DNA of 64,000 bases from Liolophura sinensis (Eukaryota > Mollusca > Polyplacophora > Chitonida > Chitonidae): positions 31,977,385-32,041,384 of the forward strand of contig NC_088295.1 in the NCBI RefSeq assembly GCF_032854445.1. Reading direction: 5' to 3'. The stretch's first letter is position 1; the number at the start of each line of letters is the position of its first letter. A program made the translations under genes and the position numbers. The notes below the pieces were generated by a model. That model saw nothing but the letters and a program-made list of their open reading frames with translations. It had not been told where the DNA came from and searched no databases. Positions 27,019-60,000 of this stretch are shown here, one piece after another.

Positions 27019-30000
27019 CTGGGGAGAGCAATTTGGAAATTTACATTACATGTAAACACAAAAACAAAGTGACCTGCTGTATTTTTCCACATTATTACAG
27101 TTGGATTTATTTATTTAACTGACAGGTGTTTTACGCAGTACTCAAGACTATTTCACGTACACGGCGGCGACCAGCATTATGGTGGGAGGAAACCTGGCAG
27201 AGTCCGGGGAAAACCCACGAACCATTACAGTTGGATCTTTCTTTTTAAAATGTACATTTCTTTTCAAGGGATATATGGTACGGGAGGTAGTGTCATTAAA
27301 ACTTCATTGCTTCGCTAGTATCAATGGTATCAGATAAACGTAAGTTTAGTCTAACAGGAAGTATTTCACGGACATTAATGTACAACACGACTGGGCAAGT
27401 TAACTCGACCGAAGGGAAAAGGTTAGATTCACCAACAATTACATTCAGATTTTACCTTACAATACATACATCTGTTCAGATATACATGTCGGTTACTCCT
27501 TGTTTACACTGTACGAACCTATTTCTTTCAAACTGCGACTGACATTTACTCATGGTTTGAATGTTTTATGTGAGAAATATCCATTCCAGCTTCATTTCAA
27601 CCTTGAATTTTACAAAAAAGGAAATATTAAAAGGTCACAGGGAGGCAATGTGAATGAATCTGGATTTTTTTTTTTCATGTGAAAGAAGTCCGCCGCTCTT
27701 CATTTGTTTGATCTTAAGATACCATAGCCCTTGTTAAGTAAAGGTTTGATAATGGTATAGAAGCACCATCCGCGGACCCTGACAGTCTGGTATCATCTTA
27801 GCTCGCTTACATTTAATTTTCACTGGAAATCCCAAAGGAATTAATAGAACTGTTTCGATTAAATAATATGTGAATTTCAGTAAATATAACCAAATCAAAT
27901 ATGCCTTATATACAGAACATTTATGTTATAATCAATAATGCTTGTTAGAATAAGAATCTTGGAGATAAATTAAAATGGTTTTGTTTAATGTATGGCCTCT
28001 ATTTATCCGTCAATAATTACAAATTCCTCATGGGTTATTTGAGGGCTGCGTGCTATATTTTGTCCCTGTTTACTGCTGAGGACTGCTGAAATACTGTCAG
28101 TAAAACCTAGCCTTTGTCAACAGGTAAGTAAAAAGATTAAGTACTTATGAAGACTTAGCAGAACGACTATTTAGTCCTTCTTGCAAGGCACATGGAACCG
28201 CTTTGGGTAACTCTTGAAGTCCCTATAGGCAACAGACCAAAGAAAAGTACAATAACTATACACAAACCATTTTTCACCTTATTTGACACTTTCCTCTGAA
28301 AATTTTATCTTCTTCAGGGTGGTTTAATGGCTCTCTGGATTCTATAGCTGTGACAGCTTTTTTGACTTTATGATTCCTTGGCTTTATGAAATATTATATA
28401 CAGATCCAATAAGTTCTAATGCATCTTGTTTACTGGGTGCAATCTAAGTTTGGAAGCTTAAATGTGTGACTGAGTACACTTTCAAAGGAAGCTACAGTTC
28501 AACTTGGTTTCATCAGTTTGCACTTTTATCCTTGCTTAAGGCTCCTTTATTTAAGGCCACACTTTTGTTTCTACCTTATCACAAACATCAAAGACACTAA
28601 ACTCCTCTGAGGTTTTACAGCTGTCAGTAAATTAATAGTATTGCTGGTGGAGCAGCATAGTGCTGACTGAAGGTTTGCACTCAGGACTATTTCCACCTCA
28701 CAAAGTTCCAATACGCTGCCTAAAACATTATCCTCAGGGTTTTTTTTTTTTGACACGGCAATAATGTTAAGGTGTGAAATATATTGACTGTGACTTGTCT
28801 GGACGATGAAAATCCCTCCTGCCTGGTTGTGGTGCCTTAGTGTCAATAAACCGTTAATGGTGCTTATGTCTTCTACCAATATAACATGCAAGTATGTTTG
28901 TCATATGTGTGAAGTTTTATCTGTACCTTGCCAAAGTCTGGGGTTGTAATATCCAGATTTCCTACCCCAATAAAACTGACTGCCATCTTGTGAGACAATA
29001 ATCATTAAGTAAGGTTTTAACGAAGAATGAAATAAATTAAATAATTATGAAAATATGTACTTGTATCAGAGAGAGACATATCCCTGATGTACATGAATCT
29101 CAGATGACAATCCCTTACATGTATCTGAGAGAGATATACACCTCATGTATCTCTGATGACAACATTTATGATAGTATCAGAGAGATATACACATGAGATA
29201 TCTCTTGATGATCATGGCTTATCTCAGGTATCTCAGAGTGATACACCCGTGATGACCATGGCTTACATGTATCAAAGATAGATACATCTCTGATGCATGT
29301 ACCTCCAATGACAATGGCTTACTTGTATCAGAGAGATATACACCTGATGTATCTCTGATGACAATGGTTTACATTTATGATAGTATCCGAGAGATATATA
29401 CCTGATATATCTCTTGATGATCATGGCTGCCAGGTATCTCAGAGTGATACACCCATGATGACCATGGCTTACATGTATCAAAGATAGATACATCTCTCTG
29501 ATGCATGTATCTCTGATGACAATGGCTTACTTGTATCAGAGAGGGATATACACCTGATGTATCTCTGATGACAATGGTTTACATTTATGATAGTATCCGA
29601 GAGATATATACCTGATATATCTCTTGATGATCCTGGCTGCCAGGTATCTCAGAGTTATACACCCGTGATGACCATGGCTTACATGTATCAAAGATAGATA
29701 CATCTCTGATGCATGTATCTCTGATGACAATGGCTTACTTGTATCAGAGAGGGATATACACCTCCTGTACATCTTGTAAAACTGACTCACCTATACTAGA
29801 AAGAGATGAATCCCTCATGGATCTCTCTAATGACATGGCCTCTAGTTTAGATGTATAAAAGCCATTGAAATCCAACCTGCACAACAGAAAAAAAATAATG
29901 TCAACTACGGATGGTGCAAGAAATATGAATGGAGACAGAATTGCCTGAAGACATTCAATCCATGCAGAGACTGTTTCCTGGCATTTGTGCACTGCATGTA

Positions 30001-33000
30001 TAGTACAAAAAGTCCATTACCTACAACTATGCAACTTCCCCATAGCTAATCTCCACAGCACATTACACGTGTTACATCTTAGGTGGAAACTGCGAACTGA
30101 ATCATGGGAAATCTAACTGTAAACGGCTGCAACAAGAGCTGGTCACACCTTAAAACCAAAACTGAATCATTGCTGCTATGCAGATAATAACCCATTGACC
30201 CTTTCTATATTTCCAAGCAACTGTAAAACAATCACTATCAACGACACCGTTGTCCTTTTACAAAAGTTTCCATTGTCGTAATTTTTAAGGTCTATTTCGA
30301 CACAAATGTGTTTGGAACCCATCAGCAATTTCTCAAACGTTTGCTGCACAATAGAGAAAAAGAAAAATACATAACTGCACTGATATGTCACACACTGTGC
30401 TAGAGATGGAAGAAAAGCGTAAACTGCCATGGAGACTAGCTATAGAAAAGTCACATACTTCTGGGTAATGGACTTCTGATAGTATCTATTCACATCTCAC
30501 TGACTCCCCAACTCACAATACACACGCCTTATTAAAAATATAGTAACTAACAGTCTGTTGCAATACAAAACTGTAATGTGTGAATAAATGAAAAGCAACA
30601 AGAACATAGATAGATGCACTATTCACCTACAAAATCAGATCAAGCTCTTTTACCCAGTACATGTATAACTTTAGGTTTGATCTGCTATAACTTACACTAC
30701 TCACCTGTACAGAATGTTCAAAAGCTTGTGTTCACTACCACAGCTACTAAAGTCCATTATTTTGTCCAGCAGCTCCAGCAATAGCCGAGAGAAGTTGGTA
30801 TCAAAATTTAGGATAGTCCGCTCAAAATTCTCACTTCCAGCCAACTGATCCACATGCTCTGATACAACCTGACGGCACAGAAAACAGTGAGTCAGGAGGT
30901 ATGTATGTATGCTTGGAGTTTAATGTCGTACTTAACAATTTGACTACAAGGGCGACCAGAGAGTAAATCAGCACCTGCATTGGTGAGAGACTCCAGGTTC
31001 ATTGTGCGATGCTGGCAAACTAACCACCTGGGGCACAGAGGCCCCCACATGTAAAATTGAGTCACACTGATATACCCCCCCCCCCTCCGTGCAGCTGTGA
31101 GAAAGTGAGAATATCCAGTAATATATGGTATTTATTTATCTGACTGATGTTTTAACCCCATAATGAACAGTTTCTTTTGCTTAAAGGACGAAGCTTTGGT
31201 TAGTTCAAAGGAAAGCAGAGTGCCTAATATCTGCTGAATTAGGACACATCCGCAGCAGTCACATCTGGCTTCAAACACACTACAAGTGCTTTAATGGTAT
31301 AAAAGGAGCTGACAAACTGCAGGAGGGCCTGATTATCTGATCACATGTGGACCCACAGCACATATAACAGTTGCTAAGACCACGCTTGTAATTTTCAAAT
31401 CATTTTCATCAATGAAGTTTTTGGCTCCATGCTGCTGCTTCCTCTGTTACAGCAGTGTGCCATGCTAGGCAATTACTGGCCCACCTAAAGCTGTTGTACC
31501 TTTCTGGTCATCTTGTTTTTGTCTGGGTCCTGCTTCCTCTCCCTCAGGGTGGGCTCTGCCAGACCCTGAAGTGTGGCCACTCTGGTTAGGTCCCCTCCCT
31601 CCAGTTCCACACTGGTGCTCTGAGTCAGCCGCTGAGAAGACCCAATACATGACCGCCATTAACATAAGGGTAAAACATGAATCCACTGGATATTACAGCA
31701 GCATTTCATTCATATGTCTATAGTTTAATACGCTAAAGTGAGGATTATCTTATACACCTAATAACCCTCTCCATGTAAATTTATTTCAATATTTACTTAT
31801 TTATTTGATTGGTGTTTTACGCCGTACTCTAGAACATTTCACTTATACGATGGCGGCCAGCATTATGGTGGAAGGAAACCGAATAGAGCCTGGATAAAAC
31901 CGCCCTGTGGCCGAAGGGGATCTTAACCTGTACACAAACCGGGATAATACAGTATAACCTCCTTACCAAGATTAAGAAGATATCAAAATCAATGCTCTCA
32001 TTACTGCATCAGATCTTTCCCCTTATTGCCAAGGTGACCATCAAAGCTTCAAAGTGCTTCAGTCACAGTGTTAAGAAAAAGCAACTTTTACAATCTCCTG
32101 AAATTGTGTTTATCCTGAACATAAAAGAAATGTTTACCAACAGAAAATATTTACCAAAGATGTTTATCAAAAGAAAGTGTGTTCCAAACAAAGATTTTTT
32201 TGTCAAAGAAAAATATTGACCACAGAAAGTAGTAAGCACAGAAAATATTGAGCAAAGGAAAACACTTAGCCACTCACCTGAGCACAGTTACAAAAGGTTA
32301 CACAGACCATCATCAGTTTGTGGACAATCTTCAGCAGATCAGGGTTGGTCAGCATGCAGTCCTTGAGACAATTGTTCAGGAAGTCAGTGTGACACTCCAG
32401 AACATCATCCACATTTGTTACCTGTCACACACAACATTAGTTTTGTCCGCTATACAGGAAGATTCAAATGCCAGCGTATTTATCTCAAGCCTCATACGTC
32501 AGAAACTAAATGCAAGTCTTAAAGACTCTACAATATGTCTGACTATTTTCTTCAATATTGCTGAGAAATCAACAGAAGAAGTGAAAATTTATAAAATACC
32601 ATCTACGAAATATTTTGTCCTGAGCCTTGATGTCCAATAAGTTTCTTATTTAGTTTCTATATGAACCAATACCATAACACTGAAAGCTAGAAAAACCTAA
32701 TATTAAATAGCAGACATTATGCAAAGTAATGCTAATTTCACATGCTGATTCATCAGCTGATTTTCCACACCCCTGTGTGTGTATATGTGGTGTTAAATAC
32801 ATGTCTACATGTCTTATACACTCTAAACTACATCTACTTACTTTCTATCAATATGCAAAGACTTAACGCACACTTACTTCATCCAGGTTTGTCTGGAAGA
32901 GATGCCAATTGGGCTCCACCACCTCAAACATCATGTAATACTCAAAGTTCTGGACAAAGTTCAGCATTCTCTGTCGCAGAGCAAACGCTGACGAGTACCA

Positions 33001-36000
33001 TCGTGAAGATCGTAAACTGTACATCTTAGCAGCCTTATTCCCCATCCACACACTATAAAAACACACAACAGGTAAACTGTACATCTTAGCAGCCTTATTC
33101 CCCATCCACACACTACAAAAACACACAACAGGTAAGCTGTACATCTTAGCAGCCTTATTCCCCATCCACACACTACAAAAACACACAACAGGTAAACTGT
33201 ACATCCTAGCAGCCTTATTCCCCATCCACACACTACAAAAACACACAACAGGTAAACTGTACATCTTAGCAACCTTATTCCCCATCCACACACTACAAAA
33301 ACACACAACAGGTAAGCTGTACATCTTAGCAGCCTTATTCCCCATCCACACACAACAAAAACACACAACAGGTAAACTCTACATCTTAGCAGCTTTATTC
33401 CCCATCCACACACTACAAAAACACACAACAGGTAAGCTGTACATCTTAGCAGCCTTATTCCCCATCCACACACTACAAAAACACACAACAGGTAAACTGT
33501 ACATCTTAGCAGCCTTATTCCCCATCCACACACTACAAAAACACACAACAGGTAAGATGTACATCTTAGCAGCCTTATTGCCCATCCACACACTACAAAA
33601 ACACACAACAGGTAAGCTGTACATCTTAGCAGCCTTATTCCCCATCCACACACTACAAAAACACACAACAGGTAAGCTGTGCATCTTAGCAGCCTTATTC
33701 CCCATCCACACACTACAAAAACACACAACAGTTAAACTCTACATCTTAGCAGCCTTATTCCCCATCCACACACTACAAAAACACACAACAGGTAAACTGC
33801 ACATCTTAGCAGCCTTATTCCCCATCCACATGCTACAAAAACACACAACAGGTAAGCTGTACATCTTAGCAGCCTTATTCCCCATCCACACACTACAAAA
33901 ACACACAACAGGTAAGCTGTACATCTTAGCAGCCTTATTCCCCATCCACACACTACAAAAACACACAACAGGTAATAAAATAACCCACCTGATATACCAA
34001 GTTAAAGGCTCAAATAACACGTTGAATTTATAAACGTAATTCATGCATATGACAGCAGTATCAATCTGTAATACATTGGTGGAGTATTGTAGGTGGAGAA
34101 AACTGGAGTGCCCCGCATAAACCACCGACCCACATGTGTCATACACATATGCACACTATTTTGGTGGAAGACAAGTGGTCTTAAATGGAACTGGATCGGC
34201 AAATCCCATAGTTAAACTGATTTATTTGGTTTGTGTTTTACGCATTTCTATAAGGCTCCAGGATCATCGCACTGCTCTCACATACCATAAGCCAACCGAC
34301 CTGAAGACCCCCCCCACTTCCCACCCAACCAACTCACACGCACATACCACCCCCCACCCATCATCCCTCGTCATTTTAAATAACTCCAACATCACGCAAA
34401 TAACCCATGCATATTTATCATTCTGAATGATATATTGCTCCTCTGGCTTTATTTTAGATAAATAACCTGACAAAGAAAGAAATTGAGAATCCCAGGTATA
34501 TTTGCAACACGCTACCCTATAAATTTGTGTTTTGTCATGGGAGTACTGGAGCCTGCGATGCAAACCTACATAATATTAACCTGTGTTTTGTCAAGGGAGA
34601 ACTGGAGTCTGCAATGCAAACCTACATAATATTAACCTGTGTTTTGTCAAGGGAGAACTGGAGCCTGCGATGCAAACCTACATAATATTAACCTGTGTTT
34701 TGTCAAGGGAGAACTGGAGTCTGCAATGCAAACCTACATAATATTAACCTGTGTTTTGTCAAGGGAGAACTGGAGCCTGCGATGCAAACCTACATAATAT
34801 TAACCTGTGTTTTGTCAAGGGAGAACTGGAGTCTGCAATGCAAACCTACATAATACTGTGAAATACTTAATTTTCACGTGAAGCTAATTTTGCATATTTT
34901 CGCGGTCAATAATTTAGCGCAAAAAATAATTCCTGCGAAAAAAATATCCAGTATTGAATCATATACTACAGGTAGTAGTAATAATGAAGTGAAATCTTTG
35001 CCAGGGTGTCTGAAGTTGCGCTAAGAAAGCTTGAAGGGCCACCTAAATTTTTTAACACCAGGGAAGGGAAATTATGCTTTAAATGTAAACAAACACTGGT
35101 GCTAAGGCTTGGTGGGTATAAAACAAAGTGGGAATTTATTAGTCTTTAGTTTGATCAATCTTCTCCATGCCCATTAAGTGAAGAAAAGTAGATACCAGCA
35201 TGTGCTGGCTTCTAATGAATGTCGCTCTGATACACGCTATCCCATTGGCTGTGTCTCTCCTGTGGTCCAATGAGTGAGCTTCTAACAAAGTGTGAAGTGC
35301 GTACAACAAGCTACAGCAATGTTTGTGGTTTCTGACCTGATACAGAGGACGATTAAAACTGAAAACAATGCAAAACTTACCGTCTTGCTTGATAAAGAAT
35401 GAGTGACTGGTGCCAATAATGGTGAATTCATACATTTAGCATTGAACTGCTCAAAAGGTGACAGGTCGACAGGTCACTTTGCCAGGTGTTTTTAAGTGCT
35501 CATCAATGCTTCAAAAAGAAGTGACAACTATTTGCGTACTGCTCACAGTAGGTGCGAAAGTAATCTTCTAACGTAGTGATAATCCATCCCCCATTGCTTT
35601 CATCTCTGATCCCTATAGTGAGGATTAGCCACACCGCAGAAAACAAAGAAGGATTAAAGCCACCCATGATGATACCTGTTTTACGTGCTTGAATAACTTC
35701 GGCCATATTATATCTTGGAAAATGTTAAGATTTTAAGATCTGTTTTTCAGTATTCTCTTAAATATGTGAAAATTAATTCCCGCCATTTTTGGGGAGAAAA
35801 TCCGCAAAAATAAATTTCAGCGAATAATAAGTACTTTACAATATAACCCTGTGTTTTGTCAAGGGAGAACTGAAGTCTGCAATGCAAACCTACACCACAT
35901 AACCCTGTGTTTTGTCATGGGAGAACTGGAGTCTGCAATGCAAACCAACATAATATAACCCTGTGTTTTGTCATGGGAGAACTGGAGTCTGCAATGTAAA

Positions 36001-39000
36001 CCTACATCATATAACCCTGTGTTTTGTCACGGGAGAACTGGAGTCTGCAATGCAAACCTACTTAATATAACCCTGTGTTTTGTCAAGGGAGAACTGGAGT
36101 CTGCAATGCAAACCTACACCACATAACTCTGTGTTTTGTCATGGGAGAACTGAAGTCTGCAATGCAAACCTACACCACATAACCCTGTGTTTTGTCATGG
36201 GAGAACTGGAGTCTGCAATGTAAACCTACATAATATAACCCTATGTTTTGTCACGGGAGAACTGGAGTCTGCAATGTAAACCTACACCACATAACCCTGT
36301 GTTTTGTCACGGGAGAACTGGAGTCTGCAATGCAAACCTACACCACATAACCCTGTGTTTTGTCATGGAAGAACTGGAGTCTGCAATGCAAACCTACATA
36401 ATATAACCCTATGTTTTGTCACGGGAGAACTGGAGTCTGCAATGTAAACCTACATCATATAACCCTGTGTTTTGTCACGGGAGAACTGGAGTCTGCAATG
36501 CAAACCTAAATAATATAACCCTGTGTTGTCATGGGAGAACTGGAGTCTGCAATGCAAACCTAAATAATATAACCCTGTGTTTTGTCAAGAGAGAACTGGA
36601 GTCTGCAATGCAAATCTACATCATATAACCCTGTGTTTTCTCAAGGGAGAACTGGAGTCTGCAATGCAAACCTAAATAATATAACCCTGTGTTTTGTCAA
36701 GAGAGAACTGGAGTCTGCAATGCAAATCTACATAATATAACCCTGTGTTTTCTCAAGGGAGAACTGGAGTCTGCAATGCAAACCTAAATAATATAACCCT
36801 GTGCTTTGTCAAGGGAGAACTGGAGTCTGCAATGCAAACCAACATCATATAACCCTGTGTTTTGTCAAGGGAGAACTGGAGTCTGCAATGCAAACCTACA
36901 TAATATAACCCTGTGTTTTGTCAAGGGAGAACTGGAGTCTGCAATGCAAACCTACATAATATAACCCTGTGTTTTGTCAAGGGAAAACTGGAGTCTGCAA
37001 TGCAAACCTACATAATATAACCCTGTGTTTTGTCAAGGGAAAACTGGAGTCTGCAATGCAAACCTACATGTACATATTAGAACCCTCTGTTTTGTCATGG
37101 GAGAACTGGAGTCTGCAATGCAATCCTACATCATATAACTCTGTGTTTTGTCATGGGAGAACTGGAGCCTGCAATGCAAACCTACATAATATAACCCTGT
37201 GTTTTCTCAAGGGAGAACTGGAGTCTGCAATGCAAACCTAAATAATATAACCCTGTGCTTTGTCAAGGGAGAACTGGAGTCTGCAATGCAAACCAACATC
37301 ATATAACCCTGTGTTTTCTCAAGGGAGAACTGGAGTCTGCAATGCAAACCTACATAATATAACCCTGTGTTTTGTCAAGGGAGAACTGGAGTCTGCAATG
37401 CAAACCTACATAATATAACCCTGTGTTTTGTCAAGGGAAAACTGGAGTCTGCAATGCAAACCTACATAATATAACCCTGTGTTTTGTCAAGGGAAAACTG
37501 GAGTCTGCAATGCAAACCTACATGTACATATTAGAACCCTCTGTTTTGTCATGGGAGAACTGGAGTCTGCAATGCAAACCTACATCATATAACCCTGTGT
37601 TTTATCATGGGAGGACTGGAGTCTGCAATGCAAATCTACATAATATAACCCTGTGTTTTGTCAAGGGAGAACTGGAGTCTGCAATGCAAACCTACATGTA
37701 CATATTAGAACCCTCTGTTTTGTCATGGGAGAACTGGAGTCTGCAATGCAAACCTAACCCTGTGTTTTCTAAAGGGAGAACTGGAGTCTGTAATGCAAAC
37801 CTACATGTACATATTAGAACCCTCTGTTTTGTCATGGGAGAACTGGAGTCTGCAATGCAAACCTACATGTACATATTAGAACCCTCTGTTTTGTCATGGG
37901 AGAACTGGAGTCTGCAATGCAAACCTAACCCTGTGTTTTCTAAAGGGAGAACTGGAGTCTGTAATGCAAACCTACATGTACATATTAGAACCCTCTGTTT
38001 TGTCATGGGAGAACTAGAGTCTGCAATGCAAACCTACATAACATAGTCCTGTGTTTTGTCACGGGAGAACTGGAGTCTGCAATGCAAACATACATAATAT
38101 AACCCTGTGTTTTGTCATGGGAGAACTGGAGTCTGCAATGCAAACCAACATCATATAACCCTGTGTTTTGTCATGGGAGAACTGGAGTCTGCAATGCAAA
38201 CCTACATCATATAACCCTGTGCTTTGTCAAGGGAGAACTGGAGTCTGCAATGCAAACCTACATAATATAACCCTCTGTTTTGTCATGGGAGAACTGGAGT
38301 CCGCGATGCAAACCTACATAATATAACCCTGTGTTTTGTCATGGGAGGACTGGAGTCTGCAATGCAAATCTACATAATATAACCCTGTGTTTTGTCATGG
38401 GAGAACTGGAGTCTGCAATGCAAACCTACATGTACATATTAGAACCCTCTGTTTTGTCATGGGAGAACTGGAGTCTGCAATGCAAACCTACATAATATAA
38501 CCCTGTGCTTTGTCAAGGGAGAACTGGAGTCTGCAATGCAAACCTACATCATATAACCCTGTGTTTTGTCATGGGAGAACTGGAGTCTGCAATGCAAACC
38601 AACATAATATAACCCTGTGTTTTGTCAAGGGAGAACTGGAGTCTGCAATGCAAACCTACATAATATAACCCTGTGTTTTGTCAAGGGAGAACTGGAGTCT
38701 GCAATGCAAACCTACATAATATAACCCTATGTTTTGTCATGGGAGAACTGGAGTCTGCAATGCAAACCTACATAATATAACCCTGTGTTTTGTCATGGGA
38801 GAACTGGAGTCTGCAATGCAAACCTACATAATATAACCCTGTGTTTTGTCATGGGAGAACTGGAGTCTGCAATGCAAACCAACATAATATAACCCTGTGT
38901 TTTGTCATGGGAGAACTGGAGTCTGAAATGTAAACCTACATCATATAACCTTGTGTTTTGTCACGGGAGAACTGGAGTCTGCAATGCAAACCTAAATAAT

Positions 39001-42000
39001 ATAACCCTGTGTTTTCATGGGAGAACTGGAGTCTGCAATGCAAACCTACTTAATATAACCCTGTGTTTTGTCAAGGGAGAACTGGAGTCTGCAATGCAAA
39101 CCTACATAATATAACCCTGTGTTTTGTCAAGGGAGAACTGGAGTCTGCAATGCAAACCTGCATAATATAACCCTCTGTTTTGTCAAAGGAGAACTGGAGT
39201 CTGCAATGCAAACCAACATAATATAACCCTGTGTTTTTGTCATGGGAGAACTGGAGTCTGCAATGCAAACCAACATAATATAACCCTGTGTTTTGTCATG
39301 GGAGAACTGGAGTCTGCAATGCAAACCTACATAATATAACCCTGTGTTTTGTCAAGGGAGAACTGGAGTCTGCAATGCAAACCTGCATAATATAACCCTC
39401 TGTTTTGTCAAAGGAAAACTGGAGTCTGCAATGCAAACCTACACCACATAACCCTGTGTTTTGTCATGGGAGAACTGGAGTCTGCAATGCAAACCTACAT
39501 AATATAACCCTGTGTTTTGTCATGGGAGAACTGGAGTCTGCAATGCAAACCTACATAATATAACCCTGTGTTTTGTCATGGGAGAACTGGAGTCTGCAAT
39601 GCAAACCTGCATAATATAACCCTGTGTTTTGTCATGGGAGAACTGGAGTCTGCAATGCAAACCTGCATAATATAACCCCTGTGTTTTGTCAAGGGAGAAC
39701 TGGAGTCTGCAATGCAAACCTACATAATATAACCCTGTGTTTTGTCATGGGAGAACTGGAGTCTGCAATGCAAACCTACATAATATAACCCTGTGTTTTG
39801 TCATGGGAGAACTGGAGTCTGCAATGCAAACCTACATAATATAACCCTGTGTTTTGTCATGGGAGAACTGGAGTCTGCAATGCAAACCTACATAATATAA
39901 CCCTGTGTTTTGTCATGGGAGAACTGGAGTCTGCAATGCAAACCTACATAATTCCAGGATTAATTAAAGTATTCCCCTTCATCAGAAGAGACCAGCGATT
40001 AAAAACCTGACCTGACTGAACACAATAACAATTCCGCCAATAGCTCATGCCAAGCCAACGAAAGAAAGTTTTTGACGTCAGAAATTATCTAGAATGTATT
40101 AACTGCTTCTGATGAGGAATGGAGTTGTTGACTACATTGTATTAATACCACAAAAAAACAGCCCACATTTCTAATAACTCACCTGACCCACATCTATAAA
40201 ACCATAAGTCACACAAGAGCTATATAGATTACACTTACACTGTATGTTAAGCAAACCTGATAACTATTTCAGAGGTAATATTTATTGTAATGAAACAACT
40301 GAAATAATAAATGGTTGAAAATCTATCAGCCACTGGCTGGTTCCACATAATTAACAGAGTAAAAGTAGACTGTAACTTTGTCAATAAATGATGAAGAGTT
40401 GTGTTGCTATGGGAATTACAATCAACTAAGCCTGTGATTGTTTTTATATTCTTTATATCTGTAAGTAACAGTGGTGGATCAAATGGCATACTTGATTGAT
40501 TGTTCTTCAATACCACACACAGAAATTTTTGACTTCAAAAATGGTGGTGAGTTTTCTGGGTGTAGGAAACATGGACTGATTGATTGACTATGACAAACCT
40601 GATGAACTGATTGTTGTTCAACACCTTTCTCATAAATTTTTCATTGATTTGATGGTAGAAAAATTTACTGAATCATAACCCACATAATCCAACAGCCTTT
40701 TACAGGTCACTGACTAAAATTCCCTGGCTTGGCATTTGTCATACTGTAATTTCAAGGAACACAGACACATAATGTCACGCACATGAACAACAAATCTATC
40801 CAGAAAAAGGGAGGCATGCCACAGATCATCTCTAGCTCACCTTCAAAATGTCAACACCTGCTATTCAAGAAATGATTTACTTCTTCTTAAGGTGTAGGGT
40901 TATTGTCCACATTTAACTAAGAGTAAATGGGTACCTCTGACAACTACGTCACGATTCATGCTGCAGCCTCCAGGCACATGTAAACAACAGAAGGCTATGC
41001 CTAATGGAGTTTCCCGAACACACTCACCCACACAACTGCCTCTCCACATGTTTGCAGTAGAACAGGTGACGGAACAACATCTGATATCTGGTCAAAGCCT
41101 AAAGATAGAGAAATAAAACAAACAAATAAACACAGCAAAAGCTGGAAAATAGTTTATGCACATCCCTTTTACGATAATGGTTTTACCGGTGTTAATTGAA
41201 TATTGATTTTATATATATATATTTTGTTTTTGCAATCATTACATGTACATTATGTGTCACTAACAAGCACCACCCAGCCCTGCCAAACCTACCCTATTCA
41301 ACTACATCTAGAGGAAGCTCAACACAAACCCTTATCCTACATGTACAAAACAACGACAGCTCACCTAAACAGGCTTGCTGCCAGGAGGCTTGATCTACGT
41401 GTAGACATTATCCTAGCTGACCACCACTGATTGTCACATTTATCATCGCATGTTTCACCCGCGACTAAAGTTGTCTGGAATCCCCATCACACAGCTCCAC
41501 ACAGCTCACTTGTCCACACATTTCACAGAGAGCTCTTGCATCCAGCTATTTAGGACGCTATATTTCAATTACAGTATTTTTACCTCAAATTCTGACCTTG
41601 ACCAAGACACTGATTTTGCCTGACTTTAAGAATTGTTTTCCGTATTAAGGCTTGTTTTTGATAAGCAGATATCTGGCTAAATTCTGAAGCAAATATTTTT
41701 TTATTTTACTTTTATTTTTTCATGAGAATTCTTAGAGTAAAAACTCTACCTTTCTGTTCAGGACAAGTGACACAGGCCACTTCACCACATAGTCAAAGGA
41801 AAAGGACTCCAAGCCTGAGAGATGTAAATCTGTCGGGTCAATTCTGTAATCTGAAAGACAGCAAGAGAAACACATCAATTTATATCCATTACATTTATTT
41901 ATTTACTTGATTGGTGTTTGGTGTTTTACACCATACTCAAGAACATTACACTTATACGACAATGGCCAGCATTATGGTGTGAGGAAACCCAAGACCATCC

Positions 42001-45000
42001 CCAAGTTGCTGGTGGATCTTCCTACATACAGCCGGCTGGACTTGATTTCACATTGACCACATCGGTGAGAGGCTCCTAGGTCATTACGCTGCACTAGTGC
42101 GCTAACAAACTGAGCCACGGAGACCCTCCCATTTACTTGGCATTGGACTTAATAGTAAGTAGAGTAATAAATTTCAAAATTTTTATGTCAATAAAACAAA
42201 CAGGAAGCATAAATAAAGTAATGTATGAAGAATTTAAGGCCAAACAGTGACCTAAACGTCTTTATTCATGTGGTTGGAAGTCACAGTTTAGAGAACATAT
42301 ATGATGTTACATTCCAATCTTATGTCACACAAATATTATAACATCATGATTCACTAAAATACCACAGTAAGCTTTTCTGATCTGTCGAGAACGAGTAATC
42401 GGCCAATCATGAGCAGTACTTTTGGTCAACAGGGTGTCCTACACACTGGTTACAAATGTTTGATCTTTCTGTGGTGTCATGACATCACAACTGCTTTCAC
42501 CAGGAATGAAATGGCAAGTAATGTTGTTGCTAGAAGAGGTGGTGTGACATCAGATGTATTTGACACATCCATTTATAGTCAACTTCATCATAACCACCAA
42601 TAAAGTCGCACAGACATTCCTGACTGATTATTCTGGATCTTAAATGTCTAACAATTCTGAACTTAATATTACGGCAGCTAGGAACAAAATCATGTAAAAT
42701 TGATCATAGTATTCCATGACACTGGCTTATAACTCAACATTACCTTTCTCTAGTTTGGTTTCAATTGTAAGAATCTTGAACATCTGAGTTATTAGGTCAT
42801 AAGGCAGCAAGTCAACCCTGTAAAGAAATGAAACAAAAAACTTTATTGCATGAATTTACACGTCATCTTTCTGTGAGTGCAAATATGTGAAGAAATATAT
42901 TTCCACGAAATTAACATATTTCTGATGAGGCTTTTAATATGAAACTAATATCAATCTGACCAATTGACAACCTCTATTAGGTTATCTGATGGATTTTGTT
43001 GTTCACATTACAATATTTTAAGGCCAATATACACAATGACCTGGACATACAGATTAACTGCCACAAGGCATTGAGCTTATTGCTAATTTAATCAGTGTCT
43101 GCCAACACTGGGATGGCCAGTGCCTGAGGAAGGCTTGCACCAGGAAGTGTCTCAGCTGAGAATTTACTTGAGGTCGTCTTTAAAGGGATCCACATTGGCT
43201 GTGCTTGTGCGTAGGGCCAGCTCTAGCAAGCTCTCAAGTCTGGTGGGTAAGATATGTAAACTTTGTCAAGGAAGAATCTGGCTAGTTTTAATCATCAGGT
43301 CATTTGACTGTAAGAAAACTGGGCACAGCAGTATGTGACAAGGGTGAGGCACTATAATACATGATATCCTTCACCTGTCCCTGGAGGGTAACTGGAAATG
43401 GAATTGGCTGCAAGTGGGTCCCTCGCCACATTTAGTGCCTTGATTGCTCATATGACGTGTTGTTTTTATAATTAGCTCAACCTGCGAAAAGGAAATTGCT
43501 TTCACTGAATGTACAGCCCCCCTTACAGCTTCACTACCTGTAGAATAAAACAGCAGAACCAAGATAGGATTGTCCTGAAATAGCTTTAGCACAGTCCCCT
43601 AATTGAATACATGCATACAAAGATACTCTGTATTGAACACTGTGGCCAGTGAATTCAGGGACAATTTTTTCCTGTGAGGATACAAAGATTAGACAATTTA
43701 ATATACGGCAACAAATCTCATCAAACATTCTAAATTCACGCATCTATACCTATATCACACAAAAGATTCCCAAATTTCCCAAGGACTATTCTAGGCTATG
43801 ATAGAATTATACTCCTCAGAGACAAGAATGTTATCCAACTGCAAATAGACTTAAAAAAAAAAAAAACTCAAATCCTCTATCCTGACAGAAAGAATGTTTT
43901 TAGAATTAGAAATGAATTACTAATGGTATTCATTTATAATAGGAAGAGTTTTTGCCTCATTCAAGAAAAACAAAACAATTGGGATCAATTCGAACCAAGA
44001 CAAAGCTCTGACTCCCCAAACATCTCATCACTGCTATGGAATCCCTGGTAATTCACACAAACTCCAGTCTAGAAAAACTGTTTTTTCTGAAGAAAGATTT
44101 CTTCCTTTCCGGCACACCATACTGCAGCATCCTAGGACAGCCATGCAAATGCACTGCATCTGATCAAATTCCTAAGCTGACTGCATCTTTTTCAATCCAT
44201 GCAACAATTCTCCTTAGGGTAGGGGGAGTATTTCATCTGACTGAATGGCTTACCACTTTCATGTTATCTTAAGATTCTGAGCACTGCACTACTAGTCAAG
44301 ATTATTGGTTCACTTGCAAGACAGAACGAGTCCCCATATTTTCTCGTATTAAACAACAGATTTTCTCATAGCCTGCATCAATGCTAAGGTTTTTTCACAC
44401 AGTAATCCTAGGCATTCTGGCTAACCCAATTTTCTCCAAGAACATCTTAGAGTAACACTGTGGCTAAAGACAGCTCATGACTTTCTTATACAGAAACCAC
44501 TAACTCAATCAATCAAATTTATTAATTTATTTGATTATTGATTTATTTATTTATTTGATTGGTGTTTTACGCGGTACTCAAGAATATTTCACTTATACGA
44601 CGGCGGCCATCATTATGGTGGGTGGAAACCGGGCAGAGCCCAGGGGAAACCTATTTGATTATTGTATTACTCTGTACCGAAGAATATTTCACTTATACGA
44701 CGGCGGCCAGCATTATGCTGGGTGGAAAATGGGCAAAGCCCAGGGGAAACCTATTTGATTATTGTATTACTCCGTACTGAAGAATATTTCACTTATACCA
44801 CGACCATGGAGGCCCCTCAAACTGTTTGTTGCTTTCCCACTTCAACAAAATTTCTCAAAGAGTAAGCCCTGCCATGCTCAGTACATGTAGTACAATACAA
44901 AGATTTCTTTGTATTTGAAAACTTTCTAGGTGTGATTTGATTTGGGATTGATTTATTTATGTATTTGATTGATGTTTTACGCCGTACTCAAGAATATTTC

Positions 45001-51000: not shown

Positions 51001-54000
51001 AACTTTTCTCTTACATTAAAAACTTACACTTCCAAAAGACTCAATGTAAACATGACAACTGTGGTATCGAATGAAAGATGACTGAGTAGTATTTTTTTTT
51101 TTTTTTTGATTGGTGTTTTACGCCGTACTCAAGAATATTTTCACTTATACGACGGCGGTCAGCATTATGGTGGGTGGAACCCACGACCATTCGCAGGTTG
51201 CTGAAAGACCTTCTCACGTACGGCCAGAGAGGAAGCCAGCATCAGCTGGACTTGAACTCACAGCGACCGCATTGGTGAGAGACTCCTGGGTCATTACGCT
51301 GCGCTAGTGCTTTAACCGACTGAGCCACGGAGGCCCCCGACCGAGTAGTGAAGGTCTCATGCAACCTAATATTAAAATCCTTGTCACAACCTACCTCAGA
51401 GTACGGATCTGAAACTATTCCTTTGTAGATCCATTTTTCCAGAATTTCAAAGTATGGAACACAGGCCTGGAATAAAATTAAAATAATATACAGCGAAAAG
51501 TGCACATCAGGCCGAGTGAGTCTAATCATTCCTTCCAATGATGAAAACATACAAATATAAATACTTACAGCCTGAGTGAGGTACAGACAAAGATCTTGGC
51601 CTTTCCCATCACTGAAATGAAAGTTTTGAAGAGGTATATTAACAGAACTTCAGATAATCACATCTAATCAGACCCTCAGCAAACACTGATGTATCACCCC
51701 AGCAAACACTGATGTATCACCCCAGCAAACACTGATGTATCAAGCCCAGCAAAACCCTCATGTATCCCCCCAGCAAACACTGATGTATCAAGCCCAGCAA
51801 AACCCTCATGTATCACCCCAGCAAACACTGATGTATCACCCCAGCAAACACTGATGTATCAAGCCCAGCAAAACCCTCATGTATCGCCCCAGCAAACACT
51901 GATGTATCAAGCCCAGCAAAACCCTCATGTATCCCCCCAGCAAACACTGATGTATCAAGCCCAGCAAAACCCTCATGTATCACCCCAGCAAACACTGATG
52001 TATCACCCCAGCAAACACTGATGTATCAAGCCCAGCAAAACCCTCATGTATCGCCCCAGCAAACACTGATGTATCACCCCAGCAAACACTGATGTATCAA
52101 GCCCAGCAAAACCCTCAAGTATCACCCCAGCAAACACTGGTGTATCAACCCAGCAAAGCCAGATGTATCACCCCAGCAAACACTGATGTATCACCCCAGC
52201 AAACACTGATAATCATCCTAACAAACCCTAATGTATCACCCCAGCAAACCCTGATGTATCACCCCAGCAAACACTGATGTATCACCCCAGCAAACTGATC
52301 AGGGCCTCACTGGTCAAGGGTCTGAGGGCTTCAGCAAACACTGATGTATCACCCTAGCAAACCCTAATGCATCACCCCAGCAAACTCTGATGTATCACCC
52401 CAGCAAACAGCAAACTCACCAGGGCCTCACAGGTCAAGGGCCTGAGGGCTTCAGCAAACACTGATGTATCACCCCAGTAAACACTGATGTATCACCCCAG
52501 CAAACTCATCAGAGCCGCACTGGTCAAGGGCCTGAAGGCTTCAGCAAACGCTGATGTATCACCCCAGCAAACCCTGATGTATCTCCCCAGCAACCACTGA
52601 TGTATCACCCCAGCAAACCCTGATGTATCACCCCAGCAACCACTGGTGTATCAACCCAGCAGACAGTAATGTATCAACCCAGCAAACACTAATGTATCAC
52701 CCCAGCAAACTCATCAGGGCCTCACTGGTAAAGGGCCTGAGGGCTTCAGCAAACACTGATGTATCACCCAGCAAACCCTGATGTATCACCCCAGCTAACA
52801 CTGATGTATCATTCTTTCAAACTCATCAGGACCTCACTGGTCAAGGGCCTGAGGGCTTCAGTAAACACTGATGTATCACCCCAGCAAACCCTGATGTATC
52901 ACCCCAGCAAACACTGATGTATCACCCCAGCAAACAGTGATGTATCAAGCCCAGCAAAACCCTCATGTATCACCCCAGCAAACTTATCAGGGCCTCATTA
53001 GTCAAGGGCCTGGGGGGTTCAGCAAACAACACAATGAATGACTAAGTCAGTGACAACAATCCACAATCACCATTACATTCAGATGTAAACAATTTTCAAC
53101 TGCTAAAACCTTGGGAACTTATAAAACCAAGTTACAAATCATGCATACACTCACCCAATCAAACTTGATGTTTTCTCATGAAGAAGACTTAAAATTGCAC
53201 CTCCAATACACTCTCCCTACAAGAATGCAAATAAAAATAATAAAATACGAAGCCCAAATAATATCTTTAATATTTATTTAATAAGATTTACATAGCCTCA
53301 AGTAATTACAAAATGAAAGAAAAAAAGGGTTTTTTATTTATTATTTATTTGATTTTTACGCCGTACTCAATGATATTTCATTTATACGATGGTGGCCAGC
53401 ATTATGGAGGGAAAAAACCGTGGAGACCCTGGGGGAACACCATGACCATACACAGGTTGCTGGCAGATCTTCCCACGTACAAAACAAAAAAATAAAAACA
53501 GCATTTATTAAGTTGTTACCATAATTTTTCAACCTTTTTGCATTGCAACTGGCCAATCTAAATATGTAGTTTTGTCTCCAAAATCAAGTTGAAAATGTGC
53601 ATAAATGGCACTGAAAGTTGCTGTTTCATAGGCAAAAAGGCTGAGGAATTAGTGTATTAATAGCGAACACATTTCACAGGTGAGTTCGTCACAGAACCTT
53701 ACCCTGTTGACTGAGTTAGCCACAGAGGCCAGAAGACCTAAGGTGTGGAAGGTGGGCTGAAGGTAAAACCATAACTTCTGCAGGACAAATTCTCCTGACA
53801 AGAACAAACCGGCATCATCACAGTAAATACAGGTTCAAATACACTCTTCATCCCTATGACATTCCTACCTTTTCGCGTTTCAGAGGACAGGTACATCATA
53901 TGACTACATAATACACATGCGCCAAGTTACACCACATTACTGAGTACTGCCTCTGATACGGCCGATTCTACAAAGCCATTTCTCAACTTAATTCAAAATT

Positions 54001-57000: not shown

Positions 57001-60000
57001 GTCCTACTGTTTATTTATTTATTTATTTGACTGGTATTTTATGCCGGACTCAAGAATATTCAACTTATACGATGGCGGCCAGCATTATGGTGGATGGAAA
57101 CTGGGCAGAGAGCCCAGGGAAAACCCACCGCAAGAATGTCCTATTGGATTTCACATTAAATTTTAATAACTCTAACACAGGCAATGCCCATTTTCTACAT
57201 ACAACTTCATGCAACTCCTGTTACTTGAATGGATTAAATGGCTGTGGGGAAATGTCCCTTACCTGCATACAATGGAGGACGTCCTCCAGTATTGCCAGTT
57301 CCTGCTGAGGAGCAGGTAAGGTGCCCAGAGCTACCACATTCTGCACAAAATAGGGGTGTTCGGAAGATATACAATGTATTATCACACACATCAAGCCACT
57401 TCATACCAAATGTAACAGAGCATGTCACAGATTATGAAAGCTGGGTTAACCCACATAATATTACTACAAACCACCGTTATGACTCAATAGTTTCAAAACA
57501 TGCAGATATTGACATTATTATGGAATAACTCAACTAAAAAATATGCTTATGGGAATCCAGTTATGTGCATGTATAAAGCTATCTCTCAGCTGTTAAAATG
57601 CTCCTCAATCAAACCACTGTTTTTCTTCAATGTAACATGTTCAATATGTGCATTACCACATTAACAAGTGACACAAAAAATTGAAAATCCCTAACCAATA
57701 AGAATTTTTTATAAAATTATACATTCTACAAAAGGAAGTATTGGAAAACATAGATGTACTTTGCACCATACATGTGAAATGAAAGACACGATAATATCTG
57801 GTTCTAAAGCTGTGTTTGAACACTGAGGCTTGTCACAAATGGGATCATACACACACTTACTTCATCAGCAATGGGGTCAGTGTTGACAATGAAGTCTAAG
57901 GTCAGAGCAGGTCTGTCAAACAACCACTCAGGCTGGACAGGAACGTTCACTACAACACAAGACCAGGATCATATTAAAAGATAAGAAGGTTTCTTTTTCT
58001 GGACTTTTCACATGCTGTACTCTTACAAGCATGAGTATACATATTACTGGTTTATAAAAATCACACACATTCAGTTCTAGATATCGTGGAATTATTAGAA
58101 TACTGTAGTTTTCAAGAAAAGACAACCAAAAATACAATCAGTTATTTAGGAAGAGGGGTGGATGCTATTTGTTTCTGACATGCTTGACATCGCTATAAAT
58201 CAACTTTTGATAAGGCACTCTTATGAGGCAAAGAGGGTTTGGGTGATACAAGTGGAAACAGACGTATCCCCAAGTTACGGAAACAACTCTCCCCTGATTG
58301 GATAAAACCAATAACATGTCAGTGCTTTCAACCGTCTCGATGTATGCATTTGGGGTTATTTTGTAAGTCTGAGATATATACACTTGGTCTATTTATTTAT
58401 TTATTTGATTAGTGCTTTATGCCGTACATTTGGTCTAGTGTCTTTTCCATTAATAAATATGAAATCTAAGGTTAGGGTAGGTACGTCAAACAATCACTCA
58501 GCCTGGACTGTGATGTTCACTACAACACAACATCAAGATGCTAAGTGGACAACATGCCCTTGGCCAGTTCAGATATGCCAGAATACAACTACATGCATAT
58601 ACAGATGCATTCACCCAGTGCTATTTGTTAATTTGACAGTTTAATGAAATTGGCAATGTCTACTTCATATGAAAAGCAATTTGTCAAAATGCCACAATTG
58701 TATCAAACATCTGACCAGTCGACACAACAAATGCACAGTGCATACACAGCTTAAAGGGGTTAGCATGTGCATCATGTTCAAGAGTTTATCTATCCGCTTT
58801 CCTTGATTAAAATATCCAAGAATTATGCATAATTTAATATGATAAGCATCATTAATAAAAATAAAAGGTGTTTATCTGAATATCTTTGACAAATCATGCT
58901 GCAGAGATGTGTTATTAAATATTCTGCCTGTCACTAGTTCATTTGTGAAAATGGGTACAAGCCAATGGGGGTACAAGCCGTACCATTCCTTTTCAACTGT
59001 TTTTCTCGTAATCCTTTCCGTAACAGCTCAGACGATGTTATTGCATCAGTAGATGTTGCCTCTCTTAACAGCATATCTTTGATCTGTAAATTAATAAACA
59101 ATTTAATATTGTCATAGTTATCTGAAGTTAAAAACAAAACACATAAGGCATAACAATCCAATGGAGCTGAAGTTTTTATGTGCAAGTCATAATAATTTAT
59201 TTATCAATTTATTTCATTGGTGTTATACAATAGAATATTACACTTATACAACGGCGGCCAGCATTATGGTGGGGAAAAAACTGGGCAGAGGCCACGATCA
59301 TCTGCTGATTGGTGGCAGACCTTCCCACAAGAGGAAACCAGTATGAGTGAGACGAACTCAGGGCAAATTAAATGGTGAAAGGCTCCTAAATCATCGCGCC
59401 ACGCTGGCGAGCTAACCACCATAGAGGCCCCATAAGCCATGATATCCTATGAGATTAGGAGGTGACGGCAGACAGAGCATTACATAAGACTGCTGGAAGG
59501 CTAGGGGTTACTTTCAAATTCACAACAACTTCAGTGACATTCATATACCTCTGTTAGCTCTTGTTGGGTCATCTTTGTTCCAGGGGCAGGTAACTGTGAT
59601 ATGACTTTACTGTGGGATGTGAGAGTAAGACCAGCATTGTCTGCACGGTCTTTGGCATTTTTTCCCAGGAATTGCTTTGTCTGAAAATTTCACAAAAAGT
59701 CATCTGTAATAAACCCACCCAAATGCCTAATACAACACAATAACAATCTAGTTTACATACCGAAAAATACATTAAAATACAATGCTTTCCTTTTACACAC
59801 TCACTTTGCACACAGGAAAGGCTGTGATTATTCAGCATTCTTTACCTTAACATCTAAAAACACCTCAATATATTGACAAAGTTAAAGAGCTGAACACTTT
59901 ACAACTACATGTAGATACCTTTTTTTCCTCAGATAACTTGGAGAGCAAGAACACCAGAGAGTCCAAGTCCCGAACACTGTCATAACATACAAGGCCAGAT

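Follow-up and report, generated by a model that had tools for sequence, protein, structure and literature searches.

The GCP2 locus and its border array

The analysed window, 64,000 nucleotides of the chiton Liolophura sinensis (contig NC_088295.1, positions 31,977,385 to 32,041,384 of the forward strand), carries on its minus strand the gene for gamma-tubulin complex component 2 (GCP2). With human GCP2 as the query, we recognised 25 pieces of this gene, one of which is split into two exons, giving 26 that run from 62934 down to 29813 and among which some exons were probably missed. The exon of interest here, the 23rd of the 26 recognised pieces, matches PDB chains of gamma-tubulin complex component 2 (best E 5.6e-21) as well as the Pfam family GCP_C_terminal (E 8.1e-14). 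A first-pass annotation of this DNA had called it TUBGCP2 exon 25, of which the gene name holds and the number is not confirmed. It is preceded by an 8-kb intron, and because the exon upstream of that intron ends TGTGG/GTGAGT in phase 2, the residue at the junction is Gly, not Ser as had been read earlier; the normal junction reads C-G-VWMGNK. An Rfam scan of the whole window gave 0 matches. The features at this border are as follows.

41028..41098, minus strand: upstream GCP2 exon (ALTRYQMLFRHLFYCKHVERQLC), donor TGTGG/GTGAGT, phase 2 (tblastn match and border reading)
32878..33052, minus strand: GCP2 exon of 175 bases, its first 36 being the exonic part of the repeat unit (tblastn, PDB, Pfam)
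33012..33975, minus strand: tandem array, 60 bp x 16.1, across the intron/exon border (TRF and unit layout)
33053..33054, minus strand: acceptor 1, its AG joined to the exon body, the expected functional site; context TTTTTATAG (unit layout, matrix score)
33113..33294, minus strand: acceptors 2-5 (33113, 33173, 33233, 33293), which would add 20, 40, 60 and 80 amino acids in frame (frame reading)
33353..33354, minus strand: acceptor position 6, AG lost, TTG in place of TAG (unit layout)
33413..33954, minus strand: acceptors 7-16, AG kept, frame running into TAG in units 7 and 13 (frame reading)

The array has a period of 60, 96% matches, 0% indels and a score of 1774 in the TRF analysis of the window. 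Read on the minus strand, each unit consists of 24 intron bases, made up of a T-rich tract and TAG, followed by 36 exon bases that repeat the start of the coding exon with few changes. The intron part ends TTTTTGTAG in the units generally, TTTTTATAG in unit 1 and TTTTTGTTG in unit 6, the latter (33353) being the one exception to an AG that is kept by 15 of the 16 acceptors. Unit 1 runs on into the GCP2 exon, so that one end of the array is formed by the authentic border, and a genome search matched the array at a single place. The duplicated 60 bp have TTAC at either end, which is compatible with a duplication at a short direct repeat. The earlier description of a 16-unit, 60-bp minisatellite across an intron/exon border of GCP2, with an acceptor, its T-rich tract and about 36 coding bases in each unit and with AG in 15 of 16 acceptors, was borne out on each of these points.

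Several other repeats lie in the window. The array-bearing intron holds a second minisatellite with a 56-bp unit and about 79 copies in two blocks (34526-34855 and 35840-39952). Elsewhere, most of an intron separating two GCP2 exons is taken up by a 23/71-bp array (51672-52983), which stops about 60 bases short of the acceptor, and an array with a 210-bp period (29058-29763, on the gene's strand) starts some 30 bases past what looks like the donor of a late GCP2 exon. A repeat with a 100-bp period lies at 44552-44802; the reverse complement of its GCCAGCATTATGCTGGGTGGAAA stretch is similar to a dispersed repeat next to the exon of survey locus L020 (see below). When five other open reading frames of the window were compared with Pfam, one weak match was obtained, a reverse-transcriptase-like frame on the minus strand (2242-2676; RVT_1, E 0.00039, below the curated cut-off).

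Acceptor strength and candidate branch sites

The acceptors were scored with a weight matrix built from 21 other acceptors of the GCP2 gene, which themselves score from -6.82 to 17.81. Acceptor 1 scored 9.18 and 12 of the 15 others scored 9.95, with unit 12 at 11.37, unit 14 at 3.21 and unit 6, which is without AG, at 3.76, so the acceptors are nearly alike, as the first-pass annotation had held. Acceptor 1 is not favoured by sequence alone, and most distal acceptors are slightly better (9.95 vs 9.18). Two stretches, both identified by motif reading, are candidates for the branch site.

33976..34010, minus strand: unique intron sequence bordering unit 16 and containing TTTAAC (A at 34002), a candidate branch point
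33085..33091, minus strand: TGCTAAG of exonic origin within unit 2, its A at 33086, candidate branch site

From the A of TTTAAC, a motif plausible as the ancestral branch site, the distance is 49 bases to acceptor 16 and 949 to acceptor 1. From the A of TGCTAAG it is 33 bases to acceptor 1, and the intervening AGs are at most 10 bases from that A. Both branch-point assignments are thus putative, and a rule that takes the first AG after the old branch point would favour acceptor 16, against a reading in which acceptor 1 is used.

Reading frame and changes among the units

Translation from acceptors 2, 3, 4 and 5 would reach the exon end without a stop, adding 20, 40, 60 and 80 residues as had been claimed. 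The broader claim that the unit is open in the coding frame stands between acceptor 5 and the exon and fails in units 7 and 13, each of which carries a change of TAC to an in-frame TAG, so that a premature stop is met from every acceptor from 7 to 16.

The units depart from their consensus at 22 of 960 bases, and 8 of these departures fall in column 1, the commonest variable column. The remaining 14 changes were compared with a neutral simulation of the same number. They comprise 3 synonymous changes, 9 that change an amino acid and 2 stops, against neutral means of 3.0 for synonymous changes and 0.68 for stops (P of 2 or more 0.15); the two stops are the identical change and may reflect one event. 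One change was seen at an AG (neutral mean 0.47), and with 11 changes in the exonic part against a mean of 8.5 the exonic part of the unit was not spared. No purifying pattern on the array peptide or on the AGs was found in these 14 changes, which are few and hence make a weak test. Of the two properties looked for in a coding VNTR, a constrained amino-acid sequence was not seen (3 of 14 synonymous at a neutral mean of 3.0, again a weak test on few changes), and an array open in frame was seen from acceptor 5 to the exon only, given the TAG in units 7 and 13. Selection for the peptide or for the AGs thus found no support, as the changes fit neutral drift, with the proviso that there are only 14 of them. 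No selection is needed to account for the kept AGs and the open stretch, which are what is expected of a young array, within the limits of this weak test. The mean pairwise difference between units is 3.9%, or 2.9% without column 1, and this low divergence suggests, if only indirectly, that the array may have undergone recent turnover.

Border arrays at other exons

We surveyed a non-random sample of exon matches from the same genome, namely all 8 matches to GCP_C_terminal (one of them the GCP2 array), the best 30 of 132 to kinesin and the best 30 of 81 to the myosin head, each with 1.5 kb added on either side, giving 68 loci and 221,121 bases, of which some overlap or belong to the same gene. 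TRF placed arrays over a match edge at 6 of the 68 loci, the GCP2 array included. Inspected individually, 4 of the 67 other loci (7 GCP, best 30 of 132 kinesin and best 30 of 81 myosin, a non-random sample) carried true border arrays, 2 at acceptors and 2 at donors.

L021: acceptor of a GCP family exon, 40-bp unit, 3 units among those listed
L029: kinesin acceptor, 64-bp unit, 12 units listed, CAG in 9 of 12
L042: kinesin donor, 73-bp unit, 20 units listed, GT in 19 of 20
L071: myosin donor, 66-bp unit, 7 units listed, GT in all

The authentic border is among the units counted, and the counts are limited to matches of the search pattern. At L021, L042 and L071 that pattern takes in the splice site, wholly or in part, which makes the shares of kept sites there upper values. 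Two further candidates were dropped, L053 with an array wholly inside the intron and L020 with a dispersed repeat beside the exon; a single decayed copy of an acceptor plus about 30 exon bases at L077 was not counted as a border array. Unit lengths of 60 and 66 are codon multiples and those of 40, 64 and 73, from 3 of the 4 other arrays, are not. A codon-multiple unit is therefore no rule for arrays of this kind, and the process that makes them ignores the reading frame.

The 68 loci were also searched, with greater sensitivity, for same-strand copies that cross the edge of an exon match. This search was positive at 7 of 136 edges (the GCP2 array, L020, L029, L042, L053, L071 and L077), missing L021, and at 72 of 408 control points in the flanks. 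Borders were thus matched less often than other positions, and an enrichment of arrays at splice borders was not supported. Across the 68 loci, the GCP2 locus included, tandem arrays with a period of at least 10 make up 16.5% of the flanks (32,578 of 197,200 bases) and 1.2% of the exon matches (204 of 17,121 bases). A general minisatellite process seems to be at work, of which the border arrays would be the tolerated edge. Within the GCP2 gene itself, 52 exon edges were tested, several of them set at the end of a match instead of the true border; edge-crossing copies within 3 kb turned up at 2, those of the array and of the seventh recognised exon.

58459..58539, minus strand: decayed single copy of the acceptor and start of the seventh recognised GCP2 exon, 66/81 identical (81%), 570 bp upstream of the original

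Relation to known systems

The kind of array seen in GCP2 had been taken as not described, which is wrong. The name 'mirages' was given to tandem copies of exon-intron borders in Adh3 of amphioxus; they were also found in its globins BflGb6 and BflGb9, where, according to the accessible text, RT-PCR suggested regular splicing and the copy number of BflGb6 differs between haplotypes (PMC3087553). Amphioxus PGBD5 carries mirages in 60- and 108-bp versions, and its JGI model calls the mirage repeats exon 5 (PMC3902484, accessible text). The GCP2 array has the marks of these elements, as its unit spans a border, the authentic border lies at one end and many units (15/16) have the AG. Going by the portions of the amphioxus reports available to us, both are minisatellite-like copies of borders, at acceptors or donors, many of them with AG or GT, and the 60-bp unit lies within the 10-160 bp reported for mirages. 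The GCP2 array differs in its host, a chiton (Mollusca) and not a cephalochordate, and has 16 copies with 96% matches; in the chiton, border arrays occur also at 4 of the 67 other exon loci sampled. Regular splicing and length instability belong to the amphioxus reports, whereas the GCP2 array is known from sequence alone.

The human CBS 844ins68 insertion is a duplication of the border between intron 7 and exon 8. It resembles the GCP2 array in being a border duplication and, as far as its accessible description goes, differs in being one extra copy, polymorphic in the population, and not 16 units. This 68-bp insertion at intron 7/exon 8 is reported to give mostly wild-type mRNA (PMC1334203, accessible text). 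Human segmental duplications contain variable internal tandem repeats at exon-intron borders that have been linked to new introns (PMC2812944). On the accessible text, these repeats share with the GCP2 array a minisatellite expansion that can fall at exon-intron borders, but they sit in recently duplicated paralogs and the GCP2 array in a conserved gene at one place in the genome. Among molluscs, the TSSK1-like gene of abalone has a minisatellite of variable copy number with a 27-bp unit within intron 3 (PMC6905558); this too is a molluscan gene with an intronic minisatellite, as far as the accessible text goes, whereas the GCP2 array spans a splice border. The accessible text on gastropod hemocyanin genes describes introns and not border arrays (PMC7931591). 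In the literature searched, mostly without subscription papers, no report of a splice-border array in a mollusc was found.

The published Liolophura assembly comprises 632 scaffolds and 609,495,693 bases, the longest scaffold being 96,433,062 (PMC11068029, accessible text), and the species under which it was published, L. japonica, has since been corrected to L. sinensis (PMC12441733). Its repeat annotation, in the accessible part of the paper, assigns 14.04% to unclassified repeats and 0.08% to a class of simple repeats, microsatellites and RNA; the terms 'minisatellite' and 'tandem repeat' are absent from the main text (PMC11068029).

Origin, splicing and alternative explanations

We consider it highly probable that the GCP2 array is a molluscan 'mirage', produced by a pervasive minisatellite process and tolerated because, as we propose, the site joined to the exon body is the one used. 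The array anatomy, the nearly alike acceptors, the neutral-looking changes and the recurrence at other exons are observed and speak for this reading, as do the amphioxus mirages, reported to leave splicing regular, and the mostly wild-type mRNA reported for CBS 844ins68. In this proposal, a local tandem duplication across the splice acceptor would have founded the minisatellite, which then expanded. Expansion would have moved the likely ancestral branch point 949 bases from acceptor 1 and to the front of acceptor 16, and because of this displacement acceptor 1 would now need a branch site within the array, the simplest candidate being the exon-derived TGCTAAG 33 bases upstream. Splicing would take place mostly at acceptor 1, which yields the shortest exon (175 bases) and hence the one preferred under exon definition. 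If acceptors 7-16 were used leakily, transcripts with a premature stop would result, and leaky use of acceptors 2-5 would give minor longer proteins. The array itself would have no selected function.

The first-pass annotation had suggested that the array could act as a dial on protein length; acceptors 2-5 would then be used in some tissues or alleles to give GCP2 isoforms with 20-80 extra residues. The unit length of 60, a codon multiple, the open frame from acceptors 2-5 to the exon end and their sequence scores slightly above that of acceptor 1 speak for such a dial, but the peptide is without a purifying pattern, the changes look neutral and in-frame stops stand in units 7 and 13, so that the suggestion is unsupported and, in our judgement, very improbable. 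It also sits poorly with the 3 of 4 other border arrays whose units are not codon multiples and with the amphioxus mirages, which reportedly leave the mRNA regular (PMC3087553, PMC3902484, accessible text), and an insertion of 20 amino acids in a conserved helical domain would likely be harmful. The array could instead regulate splicing, its decoy acceptors slowing or regulating removal of the 8-kb intron, with retention or stop-containing transcripts, in a manner dependent on copy number. In favour of this idea, AG is kept not only by acceptor 1 but by 14 others, of which 13 score at least 9.95, and acceptors 7-16 lead to premature stops. We nonetheless hold it to be improbable, as the decoys are without sign of selection and like arrays occur in other genes, also at donors. 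The neutral reading behind the mirage proposal is drawn from 14 changes.

Arrays may collapse or inflate in assemblies, and that of amphioxus BflGb6 seems aberrantly assembled in the draft genome (PMC3087553, accessible text), which raises the question of whether the 16 copies are a mis-assembly of fewer. We regard this as extremely improbable, since the PacBio HiFi reads, with a mean of 8,347 bp, far exceed the 964-bp array, if at a coverage of only 14x (PMC11068029, accessible text), several units carry private changes and the array occurs at one genome place only. At the other extreme, splice-border minisatellites might be present at several percent of chiton exons, with the spliceosome normally picking among at least 12 near-identical sites by position alone and with codon-multiple arrays such as that of GCP2 giving a copy-number-variable share of inner-site transcripts, proteins of variable length and a continual source of new exons and introns; we give this wider scenario as a long shot.

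The GCP2 array, most probably a tolerated mirage, is a clean case of a known kind in a new animal branch, and the kind recurs in this genome. It takes splice-border minisatellites outside amphioxus and into a chiton in which they recur at 4 of the 67 sampled other exon loci. Arrays of this kind endanger gene models, as in amphioxus PGBD5, where the JGI model has them as exon 5 (PMC3902484, accessible text). An exon with a row of near-identical splice sites is a natural experiment in spliceosomal choice between equal sites, and the arrays themselves are possible seeds of new introns and exons.
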